DNA from: Candidatus Krumholzibacteriia bacterium
GTDB taxonomy: Bacteria; Krumholzibacteriota; Krumholzibacteriia; LZORAL124-64-63
DNA length: 37,113 nt
Assembly (NCBI GenBank): GCA_023270185.1
Contig: JAGLCY010000079.1
Location: 1-37,113, forward strand
Direction of reading: 5' to 3'
Shown here: piece by piece, positions 4,499-17,768 of the stretch
Layout of the letters: every line of letters begins with the position of its first letter
Position numbering within the stretch: position 1 is the stretch's first letter
The notes under the pieces: generated by a model
Database searches by the model: none
What the model saw: the letters and a program-made list of their open reading frames with translations, nothing else
Told to the model about the DNA's origin: nothing
Translations under genes and position numbers: made by a program

Positions 4499-4779
4499 CA
4501 GGCCCGGGATAAGATGGGGCTGCCGGCACGGGCGCCGCCCCAGGTGGAAATGGACTTTGACCAGGGCGGAGCCGGCCCGGAAGAGTGGCCGGACATGGAT
4601 CAGACGGCGGGCACTGGAAGCGCCACTTGGGAGTGAATCACCGGGCAGGACAGGGACCCGGGGAATGGTCCGCCAATCGGAAAGAGGGCGGTCGGGGGAC
4701 CGGTGTGTCCTTAAGATGGGGGCGAAAACGGAAATTGAGGAGGATTCATGCCGTTTGAGCTCGGAAGGGGGCTGTTTAT

Positions 4780-4809
4780 TTGACAGCGGACGTTCATCAA
4801 TGATAGAAT
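4780..4809 (+). promoter_or_regulatory. Sigma70-like promoter in repeat copy A
   Basis: A perfect -35 box TTGACA (4780-4785) and a -10 box TAGAAT (4804-4809) are separated by 18 bases. Both boxes and the spacing are kept in copy B. It would transcribe the leader ORF at 4843 and probably the beta-helix gene at 4950. Prediction from sequence only. Confidence 0.55.
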
Positions 4810-4842
4810 CAATTAATCAAGCGACCGAACGGAGGGTGAAAT

Positions 4843-4869
4843 ATGCGGTTGTCTTTACTATCCCTCTAG
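4843..4869 (+). CDS. Possible 8-residue leader peptide (MRLSLLSL)
   Basis: ATG 4843 follows GGAGGG with proper spacing, and the ORF ends in TAG after eight codons. The homologous ORF in copy B (15438-15458) shares MRL and the ribosome binding site but encodes MRLNSF. It may be a real leader peptide, or the relic of a signal-peptide start left when a gene 5' end was duplicated. Confidence 0.3.
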   Translation: MRLSLLSL

Positions 4870-7622: not shown

Positions 7623-8450
7623 CTAGTTTACCTCACCCTTTCCACGCCAGCGCAGGCGGCAATGTCTGGCCTCGCCAGGGACGGCAGCGGTGGCCAGCCA
7701 ATCCAGGGCCGATTCCAGGACCGCGTCGTGAAGAGTGCCATTGCCCGGATCCCCGCAGGGTGAGCCGAAAGGGAATCGCACATGCAACGGTCGCGGAGCG
7801 CCCACGTATTCGGCCAACTCCGGCAGCAATGAAACCATCACCGTGGGTAATCCCCGGCGTTCCAACTCCACCGCCATCAATGCGATGGTCTGGACGCAAA
7901 GAGAGCAGGTTGGAAGCAGCACGACAGCGTCGACTCCGTCGGCTGTCATCAATTCGGTCAGCTGTTCCGCGGTGTCCTTTACTCCTGGCAACGGACGCAA
8001 AATACCTTCGCACAGGCTGAAATGTCTAGGAGCGGCCTTCCCCGCCAAGCCACGGGAGACCATTCGGTCCAGGGCCGCCATGGGCAGGGTCACTTCCGGA
8101 TCCTTGCCGATGTATTTTTCATCAACATACTCGGCATCGAGATCCAGCTCTTGGGCAGCAGTGCCATGGGGGACGATTCTGAAACTCGTGTCACCCCAGG
8201 GTGAGTCCATCACGTCAAAGGGATCTTCCCCGCGCAAGTGAAGTCCGCCGCTGGAGACCAGGGCCACCATCGCAGAGGCCGGATTCTGTGCGGGTGACCA
8301 GGGAATCGGTCGTACGTGCTGGAATTCGAATTCCGGATCCCGCTCCTGGCGAACGATGCGCAGGATGCGGTTCAGCAGGGCTGTGCGGAAAGGTCCAGCG
8401 GGATCGTCGCCGGGATCGTCGGTGGGTGGAGGGAGACGGTCTTCGTTCAC
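7623..8450 (-). CDS. Selenoprotein B (GrdB)-family oxidoreductase, Cys form
   Basis: This 275-residue protein belongs to the glycine/sarcosine/betaine reductase selenoprotein B family. Diagnostic blocks are VRPIPWSPAQNP, VALVSSGGLHLRGEDPFD, GDTSFRIVP, DPEVTLPMAALDRMV, APRHFSL and DGVDAVVLLPTCSLCVQT. In relatives the last block carries the active-site U-x-x-C; here it is C-x-x-C (Cys182, Cys185), so this is a non-selenocysteine form. The family reduces small C-N or C-X bonds through a selenol or thiol, but the substrate here is unknown. It is the last gene of the leftward operon, 16 nt after the ATP-grasp gene, and no GrdA, GrdC or GrdE partner is present. The setting suggests it acts on the peptide or on a peptide-bound intermediate. 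The family is fairly sure; its role in peptide maturation is inference. Confidence 0.72.
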   Translation of the reverse strand: MNEDRLPPPTDDPGDDPAGPFRTALLNRILRIVRQERDPEFEFQHVRPIPWSPAQNPASAMVALVSSGGLHLRGEDPFDVMDSPWGDTSFRIVPHGTAAQELDLDAEYVDEKYIGKDPEVTLPMAALDRMVSRGLAGKAAPRHFSLCEGILRPLPGVKDTAEQLTELMTADGVDAVVLLPTCSLCVQTIALMAVELERRGLPTVMVSLLPELAEYVGAPRPLHVRFPFGSPCGDPGNGTLHDAVLESALDWLATAAVPGEARHCRLRWRGKGEVN

Positions 8451-8466
8451 GACAGGCCTCTCTTTA

Positions 8467-9414
8467 TCAGAACGGACTGACCGGTCGAGGAGGACTGATC
8501 AGAAAATCCGCCAGTTCCCCCGTAATCGGCACGCCGGTCTGCTTCTCGAAATTCACGAAGAAAGGAGCCGAGTTGCACTCCAGGATCAGGTGGCTCCCGC
8601 TGGCCGCATCGATCATGAAGTCCACCGCAGTGAATATCATGCCCCAGTGGCGGGCGGCCGAAATGGCGACCTGGGCAGCGGAATCCGGCAACTCGTAACG
8701 GCGAACGTCATGTGTGTCGCGACGCGAATCGGTGTCGTCAGCCAGAGCCGGCACCACTACCGCGGCCCCCAGAATTCGTCCGTCCAGAACATAGGCTCGC
8801 ACATTGTCGCCGGCCACCCGTTCCTGCACCAAAAGAGGCCCGTCACCCAGGGCTTCCTTGGCTTCATCCTGATTTCCGGGCGGCGTGAACGACTCGGTAT
8901 AGCTGACACCTCCGACCAGGCCCTTGCGAATCCAGGCACCGCTCCGGGAGGACGGAGGAGATTGAACGGTGGCCACATCGTTGGTGCTCAGGGTGACCGG
9001 GTGGTCCAAGCCCAGGCGCGCATAAACAGCCATTTCCCAGGGCTTCAGCCCGTGCAGGTCGTGGCTGCGGGGAGGATTCACTACCGGTCCCCGTCGTCTC
9101 AGGCGTTCCAGCACGGCGTTCCAGATCGCCAGCTGCCGGCGGGAGGCATCAAGGGCCTCGAGGCTGGCCCCGGGATCCGGGACGCCTTGATCATCCAGAA
9201 CATAGGGTCGGCGCAGAGCCAGGTCCGCGACATAGCAGGCGCTGAGTTCACTCAAATCTTCACCGCAGGCGAAAACGTGGGTGGGATCCATGGCGATGGC
9301 CGCATCTTCACGGGGGTCCAGAAACACCGGTTCGGCCCCGCGCTCCTCCAGCCGGATGGCAAGGCGCACGAGCTCGTCGCGGTCTGCCGGACCAATCAAA
9401 CCCACGCGTTTCAT
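8467..9414 (-). CDS. ATP-grasp ligase (RimK-like), RiPP maturation
   Basis: This 315-residue predicted ATP-dependent ligase would form an amide, ester or peptide bond through an acyl-phosphate. The N-terminal pre-ATP-grasp domain starts MKRVGLIGPADRDELVRLAI. Then come NPPRSHDLHGLKPWEMAVYA, a likely ATP-binding Lys in WIRKG (about 164), LLVQERVAGDNVRAYVLDGR, and FTAVDFMIDAASG followed by LILECNSAPFF. The acidic E-x-N (Glu279, Asn281) and Asp265 fit the metal-binding residues of the fold. Its ATG overlaps the radical SAM stop by 1 nt (TGATG), showing translational coupling. In RiPP clusters such enzymes make macrolactams or macrolactones or add amino acids; which reaction occurs here is not known. 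Confidence 0.8.
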   Translation of the reverse strand: MKRVGLIGPADRDELVRLAIRLEERGAEPVFLDPREDAAIAMDPTHVFACGEDLSELSACYVADLALRRPYVLDDQGVPDPGASLEALDASRRQLAIWNAVLERLRRRGPVVNPPRSHDLHGLKPWEMAVYARLGLDHPVTLSTNDVATVQSPPSSRSGAWIRKGLVGGVSYTESFTPPGNQDEAKEALGDGPLLVQERVAGDNVRAYVLDGRILGAAVVVPALADDTDSRRDTHDVRRYELPDSAAQVAISAARHWGMIFTAVDFMIDAASGSHLILECNSAPFFVNFEKQTGVPITGELADFLISPPRPVSPF

Positions 9415-10772
9415 CAGGCCTTCCCCCGGCGGCTCTCGGACTGGTCCGGAACACTAGCCTCGGTCAAATACTTGAGTTCCACGATCCCGTTGAGATGATA
9501 CAGATAGGGGTCGCAGGAACCGCGATCGGCGTCCACTTTTTCCATGGCCTCCAGGGGGCAGCCACCGTGACACAGGGGCAAAATGGAGCAGCTACGGCAA
9601 GCGCTCTTCTCCAGGGCGTCCCACTTGAGCCAGAAGTCCTCGTTGTTTTTCTGGAAGGGCTCCTGCTCTTGGTCCAAGACCGATCCGATGGCCCCGTCCG
9701 GATTCATCGTGACCTCATGCCAGCACTTGAAAATCTGTCCACCCGGAGCGATCACATACCCGTGGAGACGCTCCGCGCTGCAATACGCGCCCTCCACGCG
9801 CGAGGGGTATTTGCTCAACGGAAGGCCCCGTCTGGCAGCCTCGGCGTAGGTCTCCAGTTCTATCCGGGCGAAGTCCTCGCTGCTGTAGCACATCTCCTGG
9901 ATGTTGCCACAGACGGCGCTGTCCACCGTGACCATGGCCAGATACAGGCGCATCTTGTCAGCCAGGCCCTGGTCTTGCAGGTATTGAGTCACCTCGAGGG
10001 CACTATCGGTGTTTCGCTGGTCAACATTGATACGCAGCTGGATATCCACCAGGTCCACGATCGAGGCCAGGTTGGACACGATCCGTTCAAAGGTACCACC
10101 GCCGCCAACAAGGGGCCGGCGCTGGTCGTGAATTTCCTGGGGTCCGTCCAGGGTGATTTGCACCATCTCCACACCCAATTCCACCAGTCGCTTCATTTTC
10201 GCACGGTCCAGCAGGTATCCGTTGGTTACCATCTGGGCCGAGTAGGTCAGATTCTTTTCGGTGGCCAGGGAAAGAAAGTCACTCGACATGGCCTCGATGG
10301 CGGCCAAGGATCTGGGCAACATCGGCTCACCGCCGTACCAGATGACGTGCAGTTCCCGGCTCAGCTCGGTTTTCTGCCGAACCCAGCGACCAATGGCCGC
10401 CTGGACAGGCTTGGACATACTGATCCGCTTGAGGTCCTCATAGCAGTAGTCGCAGCGGAAATTGCAGTCCAGGGTGGGAGCGATGGTCAGATGCAGTGCC
10501 TCGGTACTGAACCGGTCTCGCAGCAGATCCGCCTTGAGAGTGCCCACCTCGTCCATGCCGTCGTCGATCAGAAAGTGGGATTGGACCATGGCCTCGCGCA
10601 TTTCGCGCTTGGTGCTCGTGTCACAGGCGGTGGTGTCCGGGGCTTCCAGCAGGGCTCGAAAAAACCCCAGCTCATCCGGCTCAATGGTGGCCAAGGCGGT
10701 GGTCCAGGTGTTAAAGGCCAGCCAGGTCCCGTCCCGGGCCTGGAAGAGTCGATTGTACCGTGAGGCTTTCAT
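9414..10772 (-). CDS. Radical SAM/SPASM peptide maturase
   Basis: This is a 452-residue radical SAM enzyme. The N-terminal region starts MKASRYNRLFQARDGTWLAF, followed by the cluster motif CNFRCDYCYE (Cys103, 107, 110) for the 4Fe-4S that cleaves S-adenosylmethionine. YGGEP and QITLDGPQEIHD also belong to the radical SAM core. The C-terminal SPASM domain has cysteines at about 331, 350, 392, 395, 401, 405 and 420 (YCSAERLHG, FKCWHE, CRSCSILPLCHGGCP), enough for two auxiliary clusters. Enzymes of this architecture install thioether, C-C or ether crosslinks, or epimerise residues, in ribosomal peptides. The likely substrates are the two small peptides encoded divergently at 11952 and 12069. The start overlaps the upstream gene's stop by 4 nt (ATGA). 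The precise modification cannot be predicted. Confidence 0.88.
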   Translation of the reverse strand: MKASRYNRLFQARDGTWLAFNTWTTALATIEPDELGFFRALLEAPDTTACDTSTKREMREAMVQSHFLIDDGMDEVGTLKADLLRDRFSTEALHLTIAPTLDCNFRCDYCYEDLKRISMSKPVQAAIGRWVRQKTELSRELHVIWYGGEPMLPRSLAAIEAMSSDFLSLATEKNLTYSAQMVTNGYLLDRAKMKRLVELGVEMVQITLDGPQEIHDQRRPLVGGGGTFERIVSNLASIVDLVDIQLRINVDQRNTDSALEVTQYLQDQGLADKMRLYLAMVTVDSAVCGNIQEMCYSSEDFARIELETYAEAARRGLPLSKYPSRVEGAYCSAERLHGYVIAPGGQIFKCWHEVTMNPDGAIGSVLDQEQEPFQKNNEDFWLKWDALEKSACRSCSILPLCHGGCPLEAMEKVDADRGSCDPYLYHLNGIVELKYLTEASVPDQSESRRGKA

Positions 10773-11659
10773 ACTGTTTTTCCTTCGGATGTGGAAGCGA
10801 GGATCGCCAACCTCTGGGCCAGCACGGCTCCGAGACCGCCAGCTAACAACTCATTCCAGACGCCAAGTCTCGGGGCTGCATCTGCACCCAACAATAAGGG
10901 ACCCCCTTCCCCATAGGCGCAGGCCACCTGGATCATTTCCAGGTTCAGGATCTCGGCGGCACGTTTCCCGAGTAGCTCCAGATCAGCAGGCGCATTGATG
11001 ACCGTAGGTGTGGATTGGGGCGCGACCCACGCTGGGCCGTCGTTCCACAGAAAAGTACCGGCAATCTTGTCTCCAATTACGAGCATCTCGTACACCGGAC
11101 CATCCACCGCTGCGAACCCAAGGCGTGGGGCGGTATCCGGCAATGCTTCTGCGGGATGCCAGCGGTCGCGGCCGGTAGCGTCCAGGATCAGCTCCCCCGT
11201 TTCCGGTGGCGACCCCAGGGACCAGGGCTGGATCGGTAGGCCGGCCGAGCCGAGAAGATCCAGCGCCACAGTAGGGGCCACAGCCAGATGGGAACTGGCG
11301 GGATGATTCATTATCGGGACGTGGTCCGCTGCCAGGGCAAGGGCAGAGGAAGCAAGCGCCCGGGATTCCCGTTGATAGGTGTGCCAGCGCCGGAAGTTCT
11401 CCGTGTCGGGTATGGGGAAAGGAGGCGGCAAGGCCTGGGGCCAAGGAAAGACGGGCATCTCCAGCCAGATCGCTGGGGCCTCATGCAGGGCGCAACCCTG
11501 CCAGATGGCTCCAGCTTCGTTTACGGTGACAGGTTCCCCCTCCAGGGTGGCGTCCAGATCGAGGTTCGTAACGGACAAACCCTGTTCGTTGAGCCGTCGA
11601 GATACACCGGCAGCCACAGACGAATCCGGGAGACTGATTAAGACGATAGAAGAAACCAT
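10769..11659 (-). CDS. ATP-grasp-like protein lacking catalytic residues
   Basis: This 296-residue protein is not obvious by itself but follows the layout of the 315-residue ATP-grasp in the same operon. It has a Rossmann-like N-terminus (IVLISLPDSSVAAGVSRRL), then a 'R.S....A..........P..N.P..S' segment, a 'VYEMLVIGDKIAG' strand pair matching 'NVRAYVLDGRILG', and a final 'AAEILNLEMIQVACAYG' helix-strand. Where the active partner has E-C-N-S-A-P this one has LLLGADAAP, so the metal ligands are missing. It is probably a pseudoenzyme that binds the peptide or partners the active ligase. I prefer ATG 11659, which begins the first strand; an ATG at 11698 is also in frame. It is first in the four-gene operon and its stop overlaps the next start. 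The assignment rests on alignment by eye. Confidence 0.58.
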   Translation of the reverse strand: MVSSIVLISLPDSSVAAGVSRRLNEQGLSVTNLDLDATLEGEPVTVNEAGAIWQGCALHEAPAIWLEMPVFPWPQALPPPFPIPDTENFRRWHTYQRESRALASSALALAADHVPIMNHPASSHLAVAPTVALDLLGSAGLPIQPWSLGSPPETGELILDATGRDRWHPAEALPDTAPRLGFAAVDGPVYEMLVIGDKIAGTFLWNDGPAWVAPQSTPTVINAPADLELLGKRAAEILNLEMIQVACAYGEGGPLLLGADAAPRLGVWNELLAGGLGAVLAQRLAILASTSEGKTV

Positions 11660-11951
11660 CACTACAATTCTGGACCAAAGGAGGTGGAATGTCGGCATCC
11701 AAGTTCCGGGTCAGGGAACCGTGCCCCTGATGTCTACGGATTATGTCACAGGATGAGTGGGCTCACCAGAAAAATCAGGCTTCTGGCGCCCCGAGAACTG
11801 AAATAAAAATTATTGATGTCATTTAACCAGTGGTGTAAACTCCCCATGCGTTCGCCTTGCCCCCGACAACTTCAGGTGACCAACTATTTGTGGGGTGGGT
11901 TGAAAACGGTGACAGGGCTCTATCGCCCTTACGCACATAGGAGGATTTTCA
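11660..11951 (+). promoter_or_regulatory. Divergent control region of the RiPP locus
   Basis: This 292-bp region separates the leftward enzyme operon from the rightward precursor genes. For the rightward side a candidate promoter is TTGATG (11813-11818), 17 bases, TAAACT (11836-11841), with an A/T-rich run just upstream at about 11801-11813. A small hairpin, AGGGC (11914-11918) with GCCCT (11925-11929), lies shortly before the precursor ribosome binding site. AAAGGAGGT with ATG 11689 opens a 13-codon ORF (MSASKFRVREPCP) that has no similarity to the precursors and is probably chance. No convincing promoter for the leftward side and no operator repeat was found. Confidence 0.4.
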
Positions 11952-12044
11952 ATGAAATTCATAGTCAAACCATTGGACAAGAAGGGCAAGGGTCGTATCA
12001 CCATGTGCTGGAAATGCGGCGAAGATCCCCGTGCCTGCTGGTAG
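11952..12044 (+). CDS. Candidate RiPP precursor peptide 1 (30 residues)
   Basis: This short gene encodes a 30-residue peptide that I propose as the substrate of the divergent maturation enzymes. It starts MKFIVKPLDKKGKGRIT, a basic leader-like part. It ends MCWKCGEDPRACW, with three Cys (19, 22, 29) and two Trp (20, 30), where Cys29-Trp30 is the C-terminus. AGGAGG lies about 7 bases before the ATG. Support comes from position between the maturases and the exporter, from the strong ribosome binding site, and from a second homologous copy 117 bp downstream. There is no Gly-Gly leader cleavage site, and no peptidase is encoded nearby, so leader removal, if any, is unexplained. I know no described peptide family with this sequence. 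Confidence 0.8.
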   Translation: MKFIVKPLDKKGKGRITMCWKCGEDPRACW

Positions 12045-12068
12045 TCAAAGCCTTATCGGGAGGAGATC

Positions 12069-12140
12069 GTGAAGTTCATGGTCAAACCTTTGGACAAAGA
12101 AGGCAGGTGTTCCATCACCATGTGCTGGGAATGCTCCTAA
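12069..12140 (+). CDS. Candidate RiPP precursor peptide 2, shortened by TAA
   Basis: This is a second copy of the precursor gene, starting at GTG 12069 (an in-frame ATG at 12078 is possible) after GGGAGGAG. The 23-residue product reads MKFMVKPLDKEG, then RCSITMCWECS, and stops at TAA 12138-12140. It aligns without gaps to precursor 1: KPLDK, ITMCW and the next Cys are kept, and there is an extra Cys at position 14. After the TAA the same frame goes on as DPRVCWDYL before a TAG at 12168-12170, matching DPRACW of precursor 1. The stop falls at the codon that is GAA (Glu24) in copy 1, so one G-to-T change made it. It may be a decaying duplicate or a shorter working variant. Confidence 0.68.
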   Translation: MKFMVKPLDKEGRCSITMCWECS

Positions 12141-12185
12141 GATCCCCGCGTGTGTTGGGATTACCTGTAGCCCGTTCACTCCCGT

Positions 12186-12219
12186 GACGGCACCCTTTTT
12201 GGGGGGTGCCGTCGCTTTT
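12186..12219 (+). terminator. Strong hairpin terminator after the precursor genes
   Basis: GACGGCACCC (12186-12195) pairs perfectly with GGGTGCCGTC (12204-12213), with loop TTTTTGGG and a following GCTTTTCCCC. It sits 16 bases after the last precursor stop and 51 bases before the adaptor start. It probably limits readthrough, so that precursors are made in excess over the exporter. Confidence 0.75.
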
Positions 12220-12270
12220 CCCCTAATTGTCTCCGCGCTGGTCGCTGTCTTCGCGGGATCCGGTAACAAT

Positions 12271-13353
12271 ATGCGTCGCCGCCTGCCTCTTATCCGTCCC
12301 CTGATAGCTCTTTCTTCGGTCTTTTTCCTGGCCGTCCTGGCTGTTTTCGCCCTGATGAGAGTCGATCATGTGGTGGTGGCCCGGGGCGCGTTTGCCGGGG
12401 GCACGTTGGCCGTCCGCGCGCCCCTGCAAGGCCGGATTATCCATGTAGCGGTGACACCGGGACAATGGGTCGAACCAGGGCAGGAATTACTGCGGTTCGA
12501 AGATGGGCCACTGCTGGCTGAAATCGGACTTGCTGAGGCGCGGGTCCTGAATCTGGGAAGGCGGCTTGACGAATTGGGGGACGAGATTGGGAGACTGAGG
12601 TCAGACATCCATCCCGTAGAGGCCGAGCAGGCAGCTCACGAGGTGGAGCGCAGCAGGCTGGCCCTGGACAACGCCGGTGTTATCCAGGACAGGACTCGGT
12701 CATTGGTGGAAAACGGGCTTGCACCCGCAGAGGAATATGAAAAGGTCGACCTCGCTCTGCGCATGGCCAAAATCGAGCTGGCCAACAAAACGACCGCGGA
12801 TCTTCTCCTAGGCAGACAGCAGGCCGAAACCGTGGCCGCATTGCAGGTGGAGATCGCCGCGGCCGCCGCGGAATTGAATACTGAGCGCCTGGAACAAGAG
12901 GAGCGGCGGAGACTGCTGGCCCTGTGCACGGTTGCCGCTCCGGACAGTGGAATCGTCGTAGGACCCGGCCTGTTTGAAATGGATCAGACCCATGTTGACG
13001 AGGGGTCCGAACTCCTGCGCATTGAGTGCGGCGAGGCCGCCCGTTTCGAAGGTTGGCTGGACGACCATGGGCGAGCCAATGCCCGTCAGGGACGAGACGT
13101 AAAGATCCGATTGGACGGTTACCCCTGGCTGCTGTACGGCACGGTTCGAGGCAAGGTGGAGTTCGTGGCCAGTCGTCGCGAAAAGGGTCCGGGCGAAATC
13201 ACCGGTTTCCCGGTAGTCGTCTCCTTTGATCCGGAGTCCGGACCGGGACCGCTGCTGGATGGCATGACCGGTGAAGCCAGGATCATGGTCGGTCATCGTG
13301 TGTCGTTGGGTAAGTTGCTACTGGAACGGACCATGGGCGTGGATTCTCAATGA
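12271..13353 (+). CDS. HlyD-family periplasmic adaptor
   Basis: This 360-residue membrane-fusion protein would link the ABC exporter to the outer membrane. MRRRLPLIRPLIALSSVFFL begins one membrane helix. A biotinyl-lipoyl-like half (APLQGRIIHVAVTPGQWVEPGQ) follows, then a long Glu/Arg/Ala-rich coiled-coil hairpin at about 90-220, the returning lipoyl half (TVAAPDSGIVVGPGLF) and a beta-barrel region with GTVRGKVEFVAS. An upstream in-frame ATG at 12184 would run through the terminator hairpin, so I place the start at ATG 12271. The stop overlaps the ABC gene start by 4 nt (ATGA). No TolC-type outer-membrane channel is encoded in the window. Confidence 0.82.
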   Translation: MRRRLPLIRPLIALSSVFFLAVLAVFALMRVDHVVVARGAFAGGTLAVRAPLQGRIIHVAVTPGQWVEPGQELLRFEDGPLLAEIGLAEARVLNLGRRLDELGDEIGRLRSDIHPVEAEQAAHEVERSRLALDNAGVIQDRTRSLVENGLAPAEEYEKVDLALRMAKIELANKTTADLLLGRQQAETVAALQVEIAAAAAELNTERLEQEERRRLLALCTVAAPDSGIVVGPGLFEMDQTHVDEGSELLRIECGEAARFEGWLDDHGRANARQGRDVKIRLDGYPWLLYGTVRGKVEFVASRREKGPGEITGFPVVVSFDPESGPGPLLDGMTGEARIMVGHRVSLGKLLLERTMGVDSQ

Positions 13354-15089
13354 CGGTTCCGGAGATACCGAGTGGCCTGGTGCGCCGATTCTTCCGGGAG
13401 CAGGTCCGTCCCTATCTCGGGCTTCAACTTGAGATTGGCGTCTGCATGGTGGCGCTGGTCATTCTGGAACTGGTGGACCCGCTGATTCTGCGCTCCATCA
13501 TCGACCGCGCCCTGGGTGATGGGGACCGCGGCTTGTTGGTAATGTTGGTGGGGCTGCTGTTGGCGTTAATGGTATTCCGGATCGGCTTCCGGGTGATCAG
13601 TGTTTGGCTCTACAGCTATTCGGGGCTACGCATCCTTTTCGACTTCCGCCAGAAACTGTTCGAACACATTGAAAATCTCTCGCCGTACACCCTCGGCAGC
13701 GATCGGGCCGGAGATCTCCTTTCGCGCCTTACATCTGACATTGATCTTCTACAACGGGCGGCCGCCCACACCTTCGTCAAGGCCGTGCAGGACATCTTGA
13801 CCATCGTGGGTATCCTGGGGGTGTTGTTCTGGTTGGATGCCCGCCTGACGCTGCTGCTGTTGCTGGTCTATCCCGTTCTGGTATTGCTTCTGTTGGGAGT
13901 GAACTCGCGAGTCCGGACCGAGGGCATGCGGGCCCGGGTGGCCATGGGGAATCTGTACGCGTTTCTGGAGGAAAGGCTCGGAGCCATTCGCCTGATCCAG
14001 GAGTATCGGCGACAGAAAGCCGAAGCGCGAGCCCACGTAGGAGTGTCGCGGCCCGTCATCAGCAGCAACCTGGCCCTATCGGTCTGGGCATCGGCCCAGA
14101 TTTCCCTGGCCGACGTGATGACGACTTCCGCCTTTGTACTGGTCTTTCTCGTTGGCGGGAACAAGGTTCTCGGCGGCTCTCTGAGCTTGGGTTCCCTGGT
14201 TGCCTTCTATACCCTGGCCACACGCCTGTATCGGCCCCTGTCTCTGCTCATCGACGTCAACGTGGATCTACAAGTGGCACGGGCTTCCTTGATGCGGGTC
14301 TACGAGGTGCTGGATCGCATACCGGAGATCCAGGACAGTGCAGGAGCCGTGCCTCTGGCTGAACCGGCGGGAAGTATTGAGTTGCAGGGAGTCGACTTGA
14401 CCTGGCCCGACGGCACCGTTGCTCTGCGTGACATTGACCTGACGGTGTCGACGGGACAACACTTAGCCCTGGTCGGACCCTCGGGAGGCGGTAAGTCCAC
14501 TCTGGCGGCCTTGATCGCTCGCTATCTGGATCCGGGTTCCGGATGCGTGAAGCTTGGCGGACAGGATCTACGGGACGTTACCCTGGCCACCCTGCGTCGC
14601 ACCGTCGGGCTCGTGCCCCAGGAAACCCAGCTCTATCACGACACGCTGGGTGCGAACCTGCGACTGGCGAAGCCCCGAGCCACGGACGAGGAGTTGATTG
14701 CCGCCCTGAGAGCTGCCAGCCTGGACGAGTTTCTGAGCGGACTACCGGAGAGTCTGGAAACCGTGGTAGGCGAGGACGGTATGCGTTTATCCGGGGGCGA
14801 ACGCCAGCGTCTGGCCCTGGCTCGCGCCCTGCTCAAATCACCTGAAATTCACATTCTGGACGAAGCCACGTCCGCCCTGGACAGCCGCACCGAAAGAGAC
14901 GTCCTGACCCGGTTTTTCGAGGCCGCCAAGGGCCGCACGGTTCTGACCATCGCCCATCGCCTGGAAACGGTGGTCGCAGCAGACTGCATTATAGTGATCG
15001 CCGGCGGAAGAATTGTCGAACGGGGCACCCACACCGAACTCATGGGTCTAGATGGCCTCTACCGCGAACTCCACCATGCTCGGCAGTGA
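13350..15089 (+). CDS. ABC exporter, fused membrane and ATPase domains
   Basis: This 579-residue type I half-transporter probably exports the mature peptide. The membrane domain has six predicted helices in about the first 310 residues. The ATPase domain has Walker A GPSGGGKST (about 375-383), the Q-loop VPQETQLYHDT, the signature LSGGERQRLALARALL, Walker B IHILDEATSALD and the H-loop IAHR. There is no N-terminal C39 peptidase domain, which agrees with the absence of a Gly-Gly leader in the precursors. It is translationally coupled to the HlyD-type adaptor. No strong terminator follows; the next 140 bases show nothing I can support. Confidence 0.88.
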   Translation: MTVPEIPSGLVRRFFREQVRPYLGLQLEIGVCMVALVILELVDPLILRSIIDRALGDGDRGLLVMLVGLLLALMVFRIGFRVISVWLYSYSGLRILFDFRQKLFEHIENLSPYTLGSDRAGDLLSRLTSDIDLLQRAAAHTFVKAVQDILTIVGILGVLFWLDARLTLLLLLVYPVLVLLLLGVNSRVRTEGMRARVAMGNLYAFLEERLGAIRLIQEYRRQKAEARAHVGVSRPVISSNLALSVWASAQISLADVMTTSAFVLVFLVGGNKVLGGSLSLGSLVAFYTLATRLYRPLSLLIDVNVDLQVARASLMRVYEVLDRIPEIQDSAGAVPLAEPAGSIELQGVDLTWPDGTVALRDIDLTVSTGQHLALVGPSGGGKSTLAALIARYLDPGSGCVKLGGQDLRDVTLATLRRTVGLVPQETQLYHDTLGANLRLAKPRATDEELIAALRAASLDEFLSGLPESLETVVGEDGMRLSGGERQRLALARALLKSPEIHILDEATSALDSRTERDVLTRFFEAAKGRTVLTIAHRLETVVAADCIIVIAGGRIVERGTHTELMGLDGLYRELHHARQ

Positions 15090-15374
15090 TTGAACCACTC
15101 TACGCAAACAAGAGTTTCGGTTTCGGACTGATCCGGATCGCATCGGGGCCCGGCTGTAAGCTGACAGCAACGTTGGCCGGTACGTCTGTTATTTAATCAT
15201 CCCTATTTTTTCTATGGCGACGCCTACGAATGAACCACCGAGCAGGGCAGGGACTGAGGGAGTAGTCCGCAAACTGGAAAGAGTGCGGTCGGGAGATCGG
15301 TGTGTCCATGATGTGGCCGAAAACGGGGAGTTGAGGTGGGTGATCCCCTCTAGGGCCGGAATCGATCGGCGGGT

Positions 15375-15404
15375 TTGACGGCGTTCATTCATGAATGGTA
15401 AAAT
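15375..15404 (+). promoter_or_regulatory. Sigma70-like promoter in repeat copy B
   Basis: TTGACG (15375-15380) and TAAAAT (15399-15404) are separated by 18 bases, the same spacing as in copy A. The spacer is also similar (GCGTTCATTCATGAATGG here). It would drive the leader ORF at 15438 and probably the zinc-ribbon gene at 15582. Confidence 0.5.
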
Positions 15405-15437
15405 CACGCATTCAGGTGGTTGAACGGAGGGCAAAAT

Positions 15438-15458
15438 ATGCGGTTGAATTCCTTTTAA
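15438..15458 (+). CDS. Possible 6-residue leader peptide (MRLNSF)
   Basis: ATG 15438 follows GGAGGG with good spacing and the ORF stops at TAA after six codons. It corresponds to the 8-codon ORF in copy A. A GC-rich imperfect hairpin, TCGGCG pairing with CGCCGA, follows at about 15492-15518 before the zinc-ribbon gene. Whether it is translated is unknown. Confidence 0.28.
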   Translation: MRLNSF

Positions 15459-15581
15459 TCTTCTAGGATATTGTTGTTGAAGTCGGCGAGGCTCAATGAC
15501 ACCCCGCCGAGCCGAATGGCCGAACTACTCGGACATATGAAAATTGAGGAAGTGTGGGGCGTGTGAGCCCGGGAGTTGACC

Positions 15582-15767
15582 ATGAATTATCCTGATTGCA
15601 AAAAATGTAACGACGGACTTCTGCTGCCCCTATCTGATTACGGGCGGGACGGCGCGGCCATCCGCTACAAGGCCTGGGTGTGCCATAATCCGGAGTGCGG
15701 ATTCAGCATTCGCATCGACAACGGGGAAATCAGCCTGGGCAAGAGCCTGCGCGAATCCGCCAAATAG
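15582..15767 (+). CDS. Small zinc-ribbon-like protein
   Basis: This 61-residue protein starts MNYPDCKKCNDGLLLPLSDY and has Cys pairs in CKKC and CHNPEC, spaced like a zinc ribbon, followed by GFSIRIDNGEISLG. Such small proteins are common in this kind of genome and usually have no assigned function; nucleic-acid or protein binding is possible. I chose ATG 15582, with GGGAG about 7 bases upstream. It stands alone, 124 bases after the leader ORF of repeat copy B, and ends before a palindrome-rich spacer. Confidence 0.6.
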   Translation: MNYPDCKKCNDGLLLPLSDYGRDGAAIRYKAWVCHNPECGFSIRIDNGEISLGKSLRESAK

Positions 15768-16055: not shown

Positions 16056-16904
16056 TCAAGGGTTCTCCGTCCGCGCGCGCGCTTTGCCCATGGCCAGCAA
16101 AAATTTCCCCACCAACACCATGCCAACCACCGACGCGGCAGCCAGCCCCCAATCCTGAGCGGTAATGCTCTGGGATTCGGCAATCCCGTCCTCGTTGCCC
16201 AGCATCGCCCACAGGGAAATGGAATTGTGCACGGCATGGGCCACCCAGCAGGCGGTCACCGACCGGGTGGTTTCGTAGACAAACGCCAGCATGATTCCCA
16301 CGCCGATCAGGCCGAACAGGAACCAGGGTTCTCCGTGAACGATCCCGAATACGAGGGCCGAGACCACCGCCGCGGGCGCCGCGCCCCACATGGACGAAGT
16401 CAGGCGGTGCAGCAATCCGCGGAAAATTATTTCCTCGGCCAAGGGCGCCACAGCCACGACCGTGATCACAGCCAGAAGGATCTCGAAGGTGGTGGTGGGC
16501 AGGTGATCCTGGAAAAAACTCTCCCACTGGGGATCCACCGGGCGCAGGCGCATGGACAACTCGGCCAGCAGCGATGTCGGGATCAGGGAGCACAGAGCCA
16601 TCAGCGCGGAGGCGACCAGAACCAATGGGTGGGGGAGGGACAGGCTGAACGTGCGGCGGAACGAAAAGCCGAACCGGCGTGCGATCAGGAATGCCGGCAG
16701 CAGGACGCCGAGCACTGATCCGGCCAGCACCGGCAGGAAAAGATCCTCGCGGGCCAGGTAGAACAGGATCTGGAAAAAGAAATTCCCGGCCATCAGCAGG
16801 ACCGCCAGGCCCAGGATCTGTCCCCTGCCCCAGGTTTCCCACAAACCCTTTGGTTGGTCCGGTTGGTGGTCGTTGGTATTATTCAGGTAGTACATGCGCT
16901 CCAT
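16056..16904 (-). CDS. CPBP-family intramembrane glutamic protease
   Basis: This 282-residue polytopic membrane protein belongs to the CPBP (CAAX protease and bacteriocin-processing) family. It shows the three catalytic motifs: LAEEIIFRGLLHRL (EExxxR), FGIVHGEPW (FxxxH) and HAVHNSISL (HxxxN). About eight hydrophobic segments are visible. Start candidates are ATG 16904 and ATG 16895 (MYYLNN); further upstream the frame overlaps the divergent HAD gene and is not coding. Substrate unknown. Some members process or protect against peptides, but this gene is separated from the RiPP locus by about 1 kb and a zinc-ribbon gene, so a link is only a possibility. Confidence 0.8.
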   Translation of the reverse strand: MERMYYLNNTNDHQPDQPKGLWETWGRGQILGLAVLLMAGNFFFQILFYLAREDLFLPVLAGSVLGVLLPAFLIARRFGFSFRRTFSLSLPHPLVLVASALMALCSLIPTSLLAELSMRLRPVDPQWESFFQDHLPTTTFEILLAVITVVAVAPLAEEIIFRGLLHRLTSSMWGAAPAAVVSALVFGIVHGEPWFLFGLIGVGIMLAFVYETTRSVTACWVAHAVHNSISLWAMLGNEDGIAESQSITAQDWGLAAASVVGMVLVGKFLLAMGKARARTENP

Positions 16905-17006
16905 GGTCCGGGATCGGTGGCCCGGGATCAAACGAATATTTGCCGGCGGTGGTTCCGCTGGGCATTCCATGCCCAAAAAGGTTATTATTCCCCTACGGAA
17001 AAACAA

Positions 17007-17768
17007 ATGAAAGGTGCCGCCGTGCCGCGTAACGAGGACCGCCACATCCAAGCCGTGATCTTCGATCTCGACAATACCCTGACCGACTTCATGAAGGCCA
17101 AGGAAAATTCCATCACCGCCGCGGTGGATGCCATGATCGACGTGGGTCTGCCGCTGTCGCGCGAGGAAGCCACCGAGAAGATTTTCGCCATCTACAGGAA
17201 AGAGGGTATTGAGCACCAACGGGTTTTCAACATCTTTCTGGAGCAGACCGTCGGCAAGGTGGATTATCGCATGTTGGCCGCCGCGGTGGTGGCCTACCGA
17301 AGGGGCAGGGAAGGGTCACTGGTGGCCTATCCCCACGCCAATCTGGTTTTGAACCGCCTGCTCAAGGAAGGGTACAAGCTGGCCGTGGTCAGCGACGCGC
17401 CGGGTTACGAAGCCTGGCTTCGCCTGACAGCGCTTGGAATGCAGCACACCTTCGACGTGGTGCTTACCTTCGATGAAACCGGATGCCACAAACCCGATCC
17501 CGCCGGCTTTCTGATGGCACTGGATAAATTGCAGGTTGCGGCGGACCGGACGGTTGTCATCGGGGACTGGAAGGAACGGGATATCCTGGGCGGGCGCAAC
17601 GCCGGCCTTCATACCGTTTACGCAAGATACGGTGACCAGTATTCCAAGTACGCGGACAAGGTCGTGGGTGATCCCACGGAACCGGATTTCGTGGTCGACG
17701 ATCTGCACCAATTGCTGGATGTACTGGATGAGTTGAACGGGCCCGACCACATGGGAAAGGAAATCTGA
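17007..17768 (+). CDS. HAD-superfamily phosphatase (subfamily IA)
   Basis: This is a 253-residue phosphohydrolase. Motif I is VIFDLDNTLTDF (nucleophile and general-acid Asp), motif II VVSDAPG, the motif III Lys is in CHKPDPAGF, and motif IV is VIGDWKERDILGGRNAG. A helical cap lies between motifs I and II. The closest remembered class is the TIGR02253 type, of unknown substrate. ATG 17007 has a weak ACGGAAA upstream; a GTG at about 17022 is an alternative. It ends one base before the nnr start, so the two are co-transcribed. Confidence 0.78.
   Translation: MKGAAVPRNEDRHIQAVIFDLDNTLTDFMKAKENSITAAVDAMIDVGLPLSREEATEKIFAIYRKEGIEHQRVFNIFLEQTVGKVDYRMLAAAVVAYRRGREGSLVAYPHANLVLNRLLKEGYKLAVVSDAPGYEAWLRLTALGMQHTFDVVLTFDETGCHKPDPAGFLMALDKLQVAADRTVVIGDWKERDILGGRNAGLHTVYARYGDQYSKYADKVVGDPTEPDFVVDDLHQLLDVLDELNGPDHMGKEI

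Follow-up and report, generated by a model that had tools for sequence, protein, structure and literature searches.

We describe a locus that probably encodes the biosynthesis and export of a ribosomally synthesized and post-translationally modified peptide (RiPP) of an undescribed family. It occupies positions 7623-15089 of a 37,113-nucleotide stretch of DNA from a Candidatus Krumholzibacteriia bacterium (GenBank assembly GCA_023270185.1, contig JAGLCY010000079.1, positions 1-37,113), the whole of which is hereafter called the window. Four enzyme genes, encoding a pseudo-ATP-grasp protein, a radical S-adenosylmethionine (SAM) enzyme with a SPASM domain, an ATP-grasp ligase and a relative of PrdB and GrdB, face a very short peptide gene and the genes for an HlyD adaptor and an ABC exporter. 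Small precursor genes are co-inherited with the modifying enzymes and an exporter, as is typical of RiPP loci. In the pathway that we propose, the ATP-grasp ligase would form an ester and the radical SAM enzyme thioethers, the pseudoenzyme would assist, the PrdB-like protein would contribute a redox step, and the product would then be exported. The existence of the RiPP family itself is well supported; each chemical step is predicted from sequence.

Recurrence of the gene set in three phyla

Scanning approximately 85,000 species genomes (GTDB) with an alignment of the radical SAM enzyme returned 80 loci. The three nearest (53-54% identity; Acidobacteriota and Planctomycetota) also carry the ATP-grasp and PrdB-like genes, and the pseudo-ATP-grasp gene is present in the two of these with a long enough contig. 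The partner genes were not found at the other 77 loci, which fall outside the clade of the system. Further sampling of 392 Planctomycetota and 396 Acidobacteriota genomes yielded more system loci, for a total of nine loci in seven genomes (two of them with two loci) from three phyla: Acidobacteriota, Planctomycetota and the phylum of the window. An initial annotation of this DNA had proposed as a test that the peptide should be found with these four enzymes in other genomes, and the nine loci bear it out.

The order pseudo-ATP-grasp, radical SAM, ATP-grasp, PrdB-like is identical in the nine loci, one of which (L037) has lost the pseudo-ATP-grasp gene to a contig end. The radical SAM, ATP-grasp and PrdB-like proteins are 45-57% identical among the loci, the ABC/HlyD pair lies on the strand opposite to the enzymes in six of the nine, and the ABC exporter of the window is 56-63% identical to the ABC protein of five other system loci. 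A maximum-likelihood tree groups the nine radical SAM enzymes in one clade (support 100/100), in which the window copy branches deepest; related maturases that have no partner genes lie outside this clade. Four near relatives (L038, L039, L126 and L131; 37-41% identity) have neither the partner genes nor the core motif described below. A search within the phylum of the window found the radical SAM enzyme in 1 of 80, the window genome only. The system occurs in about 1% or less of the sampled genomes and its distribution is patchy; this rarity and patchiness suggest horizontal spread.

Locus organization and precursor peptides

The features of the locus are as follows.

7623-8450, minus strand: PrdB/GrdB-like protein, with a CxxC motif at C182 and C185 (library and profile searches)
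8467-9414, minus strand: graspetide-type, PsnB-like ATP-grasp ligase, with K164, D265, E279 and N281 intact
9414-10772, minus strand: putative radical SAM/SPASM peptide maturase, with a CX3CX2C motif and seven SPASM cysteines
10769-11698, minus strand: pseudo-ATP-grasp, with a predicted graspetide-synthetase fold and catalytic residues lost
11952-12044, plus strand: precursor peptide 1, MKFIVKPLDKKGKGRITMCWKCGEDPRACW, 30 residues, with leader MKFIV and core T-x-C-x-x-C-G-E-D-P-x-x-C, whose invariant positions are shared by all 23 precursors
12069-12170, plus strand: degenerate second precursor, 23 codons, with TAA at 12138-12140 and then in-frame DPRVCWDYL; 79% identity to copy 1
12184-13353, plus strand: HlyD-family periplasmic adaptor (family libraries, locus comparison)
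13350-15089, plus strand: ABC exporter, MsbA-like (family libraries, locus comparison)

The initial annotation had described a leftward four-gene operon facing peptide, HlyD and ABC genes, and its coordinates, junctions and reading frames are all as claimed: the six large open reading frames (ORFs) and peptide 1 were found at the positions it had given in the window, the leftward genes are joined by ATGA, by TGATG and then by 16 nt ahead of a GTG start, and the peptide, HlyD and ABC genes run divergently from them. It had also proposed two tiny tandem peptide genes, which stands for the first, an intact gene preceded by a strong ribosome-binding site (AGGAGGA), and fails for the second. The 89-nt body of the latter matches copy 1 in the same frame and reads VKFMVKPLDKEGRCSITMCWECS, TAA and the residues listed above; since the stop falls where every intact relative has the invariant core Glu, we regard this gene as broken. 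The membrane domain of the ABC exporter starts at about residue 30, and the protein thus has no N-terminal C39 peptidase domain. Two peptidase genes were rejected as components of the system: a CPBP protease at 16056-17219, which is not conserved at the other loci, and a metallopeptidase-like gene of locus L037, which has no Pfam match and which the other system loci do not have.

The precursors recovered from the system genomes are 30-42 residues long, with up to five per locus. The motif ITMCW.C......CW, put forward in the initial annotation, is not the conserved one; the 23 relatives instead share a leader M[KR]x[IV]V and a core T-x-C-x-x-C-[SGA]-E-x-P-x-x-C, and tryptophan was discarded as part of the motif as its positions vary across them. 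Searching the small ORFs of the system loci by the leader pattern gave 17 peptides, every one with the full core at fixed spacing, and no leader-bearing small ORF without the core was found in those loci. These 17, being found by the leader alone, are free of core bias. Searched across whole genomes, the core pattern gave 23 matches in the seven system genomes, all 23 in short ORFs bearing the leader. It did not match once in three genomes that have a related radical SAM enzyme but not its partners, and a reversed-pattern control gave none either, which puts the motif far beyond chance expectation. Six of the 23 precursors, at separate sites in genomes G716 and G146, were found by the core pattern only, and their core invariance is by construction.

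Numbered from the first core residue, T1, C3, C6, E8, P10 and C13 are invariant. T1 is the only invariant hydroxyl residue and E8 the only invariant carboxylate (i to i+7), kept in 17/17 leader-found precursors and 23/23 overall. No NCBIfam or Pfam model covering the precursors was found. In G716, the genome of locus L130, five precursors lie on contigs C2, C4, C7, C42 and C90, none near the enzymes, and at least one (on C2) is near a Ser/Thr-kinase-like gene. This scatter away from the enzyme locus suggests that a single set of enzymes may act on several unlinked peptides.

The cysteines raise the question of whether this is mainly a thiol or metal-binding peptide, the radical SAM and ATP-grasp enzymes rigidifying a metallophore whose cysteines the CxxC of the PrdB-like protein keeps reduced. 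The C-x-x-C and the third Cys are invariant in all precursors, as is the redox CxxC in the PrdB-like proteins, and the peptide has a weak match to a treble-clef zinc finger (E 0.036). That match is, however, below the Pfam cutoff, the window shows no metal transporter, receptor or metal regulator next to the locus, and some of the cysteines would be consumed if the radical SAM enzyme makes thioethers. We therefore consider a metallophore unlikely and favour a crosslinked, exported peptide.

The modifying enzymes

The radical SAM, ATP-grasp and PrdB-like proteins each match NCBIfam models well below the curated cutoffs, and each therefore represents an unnamed subfamily. The radical SAM enzyme carries its CX3CX2C motif at C103, C107 and C110 and SPASM cysteines at C331, C350, C392, C395, C401, C405 and C420, all invariant in nine homologues. 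Its nearest models are TIGR04463 and TIGR04334 (Clo7bot), at 313.6 of 525 and 301.4 of 600 bits. It also matches the PapB model (E 3.9e-33, under the PapB cutoff) and, among solved structures, CteB (5wgg, E 5.5e-20). It is thus a SPASM radical SAM enzyme related to those of the ranthipeptides. The precursors score 12-14 of the 31 bits needed for the peptide model TIGR04333 and so fall outside it. Models of grasp-with-spasm systems were absent from all matches of the ATP-grasp and from the best matches of the radical SAM enzyme. PADLOC was also consulted, and gave only generic radical SAM (viperin) similarity.

Several other radical SAM loci came to light in these searches. In the Zixibacterial sister clade, locus L038 (11328-11700) encodes precursors with an MMRYIVKP leader, of the type seen in the system, and Pro-rich cores (RFFPILPP) that differ from the system core. 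Two Clo7bot-like loci from Clostridia metagenome-assembled genomes (L048 and L061) have tandem arrays of three to eight Cys-rich precursors with Clo7bot-like leader starts. The window genome itself holds a second, distantly related radical SAM/SPASM locus (L018, contig C131), with the enzyme at 8428-9837 on the minus strand and HlyD and ABC genes downstream. A 78-residue Cys-rich ORF lies upstream (10026, plus strand), and the ABC gene is followed by a small ORF, SSCWDCGERPDD, that resembles the core of the window peptide.

The ATP-grasp profile matches PsnB, the plesiocin synthetase (7drm), among solved structures at E 3.8e-35, and the nearest NCBIfam model is TIGR04187 (77.5 bits against a cutoff of 350). 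Residues K164, D265, E279 and N281 are invariant in nine homologues. The system thus has two features expected of graspetides, a ligase with intact ATP and Mg residues and a core with a conserved putative Thr donor and Glu acceptor. Secondary matches of the ligase, and of the pseudoenzyme fold, are to the RimK/LysX/ArgX families, which would suit a different scheme, in which the peptide is a reused carrier protein: just as LysX and ArgX act on LysW, the ATP-grasp would load the invariant Glu with an amino acid or another small molecule, and the other enzymes would modify the attached group. A PrdB-like reductase would fit a small-molecule substrate. We find this improbable, since the nearest relatives are, by a wide margin, graspetide macrocyclases (PsnB, TIGR04187), the invariant Thr and three Cys fit crosslinks, and several precursors per locus (up to five) with a dedicated exporter fit secreted peptides. 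What the initial annotation termed ligation is better read as intramolecular Thr-Glu macrolactonization.

The first gene of the operon had been read as an ATP-grasp-like pseudoenzyme, and profile comparison agrees. A profile of eight sequences aligns near full length with the neighbouring ATP-grasp (hhalign E 1.7e-9, probability 96%); an earlier alignment with three sequences only was weak (probability 25%). The positions aligned to the catalytic Asp, Glu, Asn and Lys are lost, and the protein has no NCBIfam or Pfam match. Its structural model has PsnB as the top PDB fold match (E 3e-8), followed by ArgX, MdnC, MdnB and RimK. By sequence, then, this protein is a degenerate, presumably dead paralogue of the ATP-grasp.

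The nearest NCBIfam model of the fourth protein is PrdB (TIGR04483), a full-length match (E 9e-26) at 90.7 of 300 bits, below the cutoff. Its CxxC (C182/C185) is kept in all nine PrdB-like proteins of the system, and relatives that are selenoproteins have a TGA-encoded selenocysteine aligned with the first Cys. A fold search with its structural model (predicted local distance difference test score, pLDDT, 75) gave no significant PDB match, and a profile search of PDB sequences found no credible relative. The nearest PrdB relatives in 146 related genomes are 27-31% identical and have no related radical SAM gene nearby, which makes the PrdB-like gene a poor probe for the system and the radical SAM gene a good one. 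The PrdB-like proteins encoded at four loci (L019, L020, L021 and L029, in genomes G110, G049, G117 and G041) are selenoproteins whose motif is UPLC or UPMC; the pyruvoyl partner of PrdA/GrdE type (PF09338) was searched for in these genomes and not found. The Cys form associated with RiPPs may have been donated by the lineage of these selenoproteins.

Proposed pathway

In the pathway that we favour, recognition of the M[KR]x[IV]V leader would probably fall to the N-terminal region of the radical SAM enzyme, to the dead ATP-grasp paralogue, or to both. The SPASM enzyme would form thioether crosslinks from core C3, C6 and C13, as its ranthipeptide relatives do. The PsnB-like ATP-grasp would phosphorylate E8 and close a side-chain ester with T1, the pseudo-ATP-grasp acting as its partner or as a substrate-presenting subunit. 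The simplest prediction is one ester between T1 and E8, because these residues are the only invariant hydroxyl/carboxylate pair and the relatives of the ligase join Thr to Glu; the outer ring of plesiocin has the same i to i+7 spacing. The PrdB-like protein could then use its CxxC for a thiol-redox or reductive reaction that acts on the cysteines or close to the invariant Pro, and the ABC/HlyD pair would export the product.

Several points weigh against this pathway. The thioether chemistry is carried over from distant relatives, and identities between these subfamilies and characterized enzymes are low. The roles of E8 as acceptor and T1 as donor are proposed from their invariance. The model of the pseudo-ATP-grasp is of low confidence (pLDDT 52), the sequence profile agreeing with it independently. 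No leader peptidase conserved across the system loci was found. We know of no precedent in RiPPs for a PrdB-like step, and a search of the seven system genomes did not find PF09338; the same search detects this partner in two of six genomes carrying PrdB/GrdB relatives. Without it, the PrdB-like protein probably does not act as a proline or glycine reductase.

A bolder version of the last enzymatic step, which we think doubtful, is that the PrdB-like protein, without a pyruvoyl subunit, reductively opens the ring of the invariant core proline at its N-C-alpha bond in a peptide doubly crosslinked by thioether and ester. If so, the chain would stay intact and gain a 5-aminovaleryl unit, a new backbone modification, and the GrdB/PrdB family would have a role beyond amino-acid fermentation. 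Because the set is compact and strictly co-inherited, with very short precursors and six invariant residues, each residue and each enzyme gives a direct and cheap prediction.

Genomic context

In a sister species (G001), synteny with the window runs rightward from position 15552 at 76-88% nucleotide identity; to the left there is no similarity, and the cluster is absent from the syntenic site. The small Cys-pair ORF at 15582-15767 (MNYPDCKKCNDGLLLPLSDYGRDGAAIRYKAWVCHNPECGFS...), whose nucleotide sequence is 88% identical in that species, marks where the shared backbone begins. As the cluster is contiguous with this synteny, we place it in a variable region joined to the native backbone and reject a contaminating contig as its source. 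Transposase genes lie at the left end of the window, and a 73-nt direct repeat flanks the cluster (75% identical copies at 4779-4851 and 15374-15446), with eight copies genome-wide. The repeat resembles a promoter (in the right copy TTGACG, 18 nt, TAAAAT) followed by a ribosome-binding site and the short ORF start ATGCGGTTG; it may be a promoter that has dispersed or a mobile leader element.

Such a setting could have brought the four genes together by chance or hitch-hiking on a mobile island, the peptide being modified by the radical SAM enzyme only and the ATP-grasp and PrdB-like genes belonging to another pathway. In favour of this, the locus lies near transposases in a variable region, between dispersed repeats, and the sister species lacks it. 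Strict co-inheritance in the same order at nine loci in three phyla strongly disfavours it, and no radical SAM enzyme of the system clade was found without the partners; we judge a chance neighbourhood very unlikely and retain a dedicated peptide-modification system.

Comparison with known systems

The initial annotation had called the enzyme set undescribed, and we found no match to it in the open-licence literature or the family libraries, nor, in open-licence papers, any report of a RiPP, a radical SAM enzyme and PrdB or GrdB together. Enzymes of two crosslinking types, a radical SAM enzyme and a graspetide ligase, are here combined with a dead paralogue of the ligase and with a member of a protein family known from amino-acid reduction, and the set bears on the function of Cys forms of selenoprotein-B relatives outside fermentation.

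Like graspetides (plesiocin/PsnB, TIGR04187, microviridin MvdC/MvdD), the system has a short, ribosomally made precursor in which Thr and Glu are conserved, and an intact PsnB-like ATP-grasp. Its ligase differs in scoring far below the TIGR04187 cutoff, and the dead second ATP-grasp, the three invariant Cys, the Clo7bot-type radical SAM enzyme and the PrdB-like protein are additional. With Clo7bot/TIGR04463 systems and ranthipeptides (PapB, CteB/SCIFF) it shares its nearest radical SAM relatives, a leader of M-x-[FYW]-[IV]-V-K-P type, short Cys-rich peptides and the SPASM cysteines, whereas Clo7bot/TIGR04463 neighbourhoods have no ATP-grasps or PrdB-like protein and a different core motif.

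Co-occurrence of graspetide enzymes with a SPASM protein has been reported for group 14 (PMC13097080) and for branch 5 of Bacteroides (PMC8939145). The latter, the grasp-with-spasm systems of Bacteroidota, also direct an ATP-grasp and a SPASM enzyme to one precursor in which Thr/Ser, Asp/Glu and Cys are conserved. In contrast, the present loci have no GG leader, occur in other phyla and add the pseudo-ATP-grasp and the PrdB-like protein, and neither the radical SAM enzyme nor the ATP-grasp ranks with that family. Rosaritide biosynthesis (MirB/MirC) indicates that a graspetide synthetase may be strictly dependent on a partner protein, MirC being a PpiC-type isomerase (PMC13097080); the partner here would be a dead ATP-grasp paralogue, unrelated to MirC.

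The fourth protein resembles component B of D-proline and glycine reductases (PrdB, GrdB) in its full-length PrdB match and in a CxxC where relatives have UxxC. It departs from them in having Cys for selenocysteine, a score below the cutoff, no PrdA/GrdE-type partner found and a peptide-modification operon as its setting. Overall, the locus looks like a new family of RiPPs in which one type of enzyme (PrdB/GrdB) is new to RiPPs, loci that combine graspetide and SPASM enzymes being already known.

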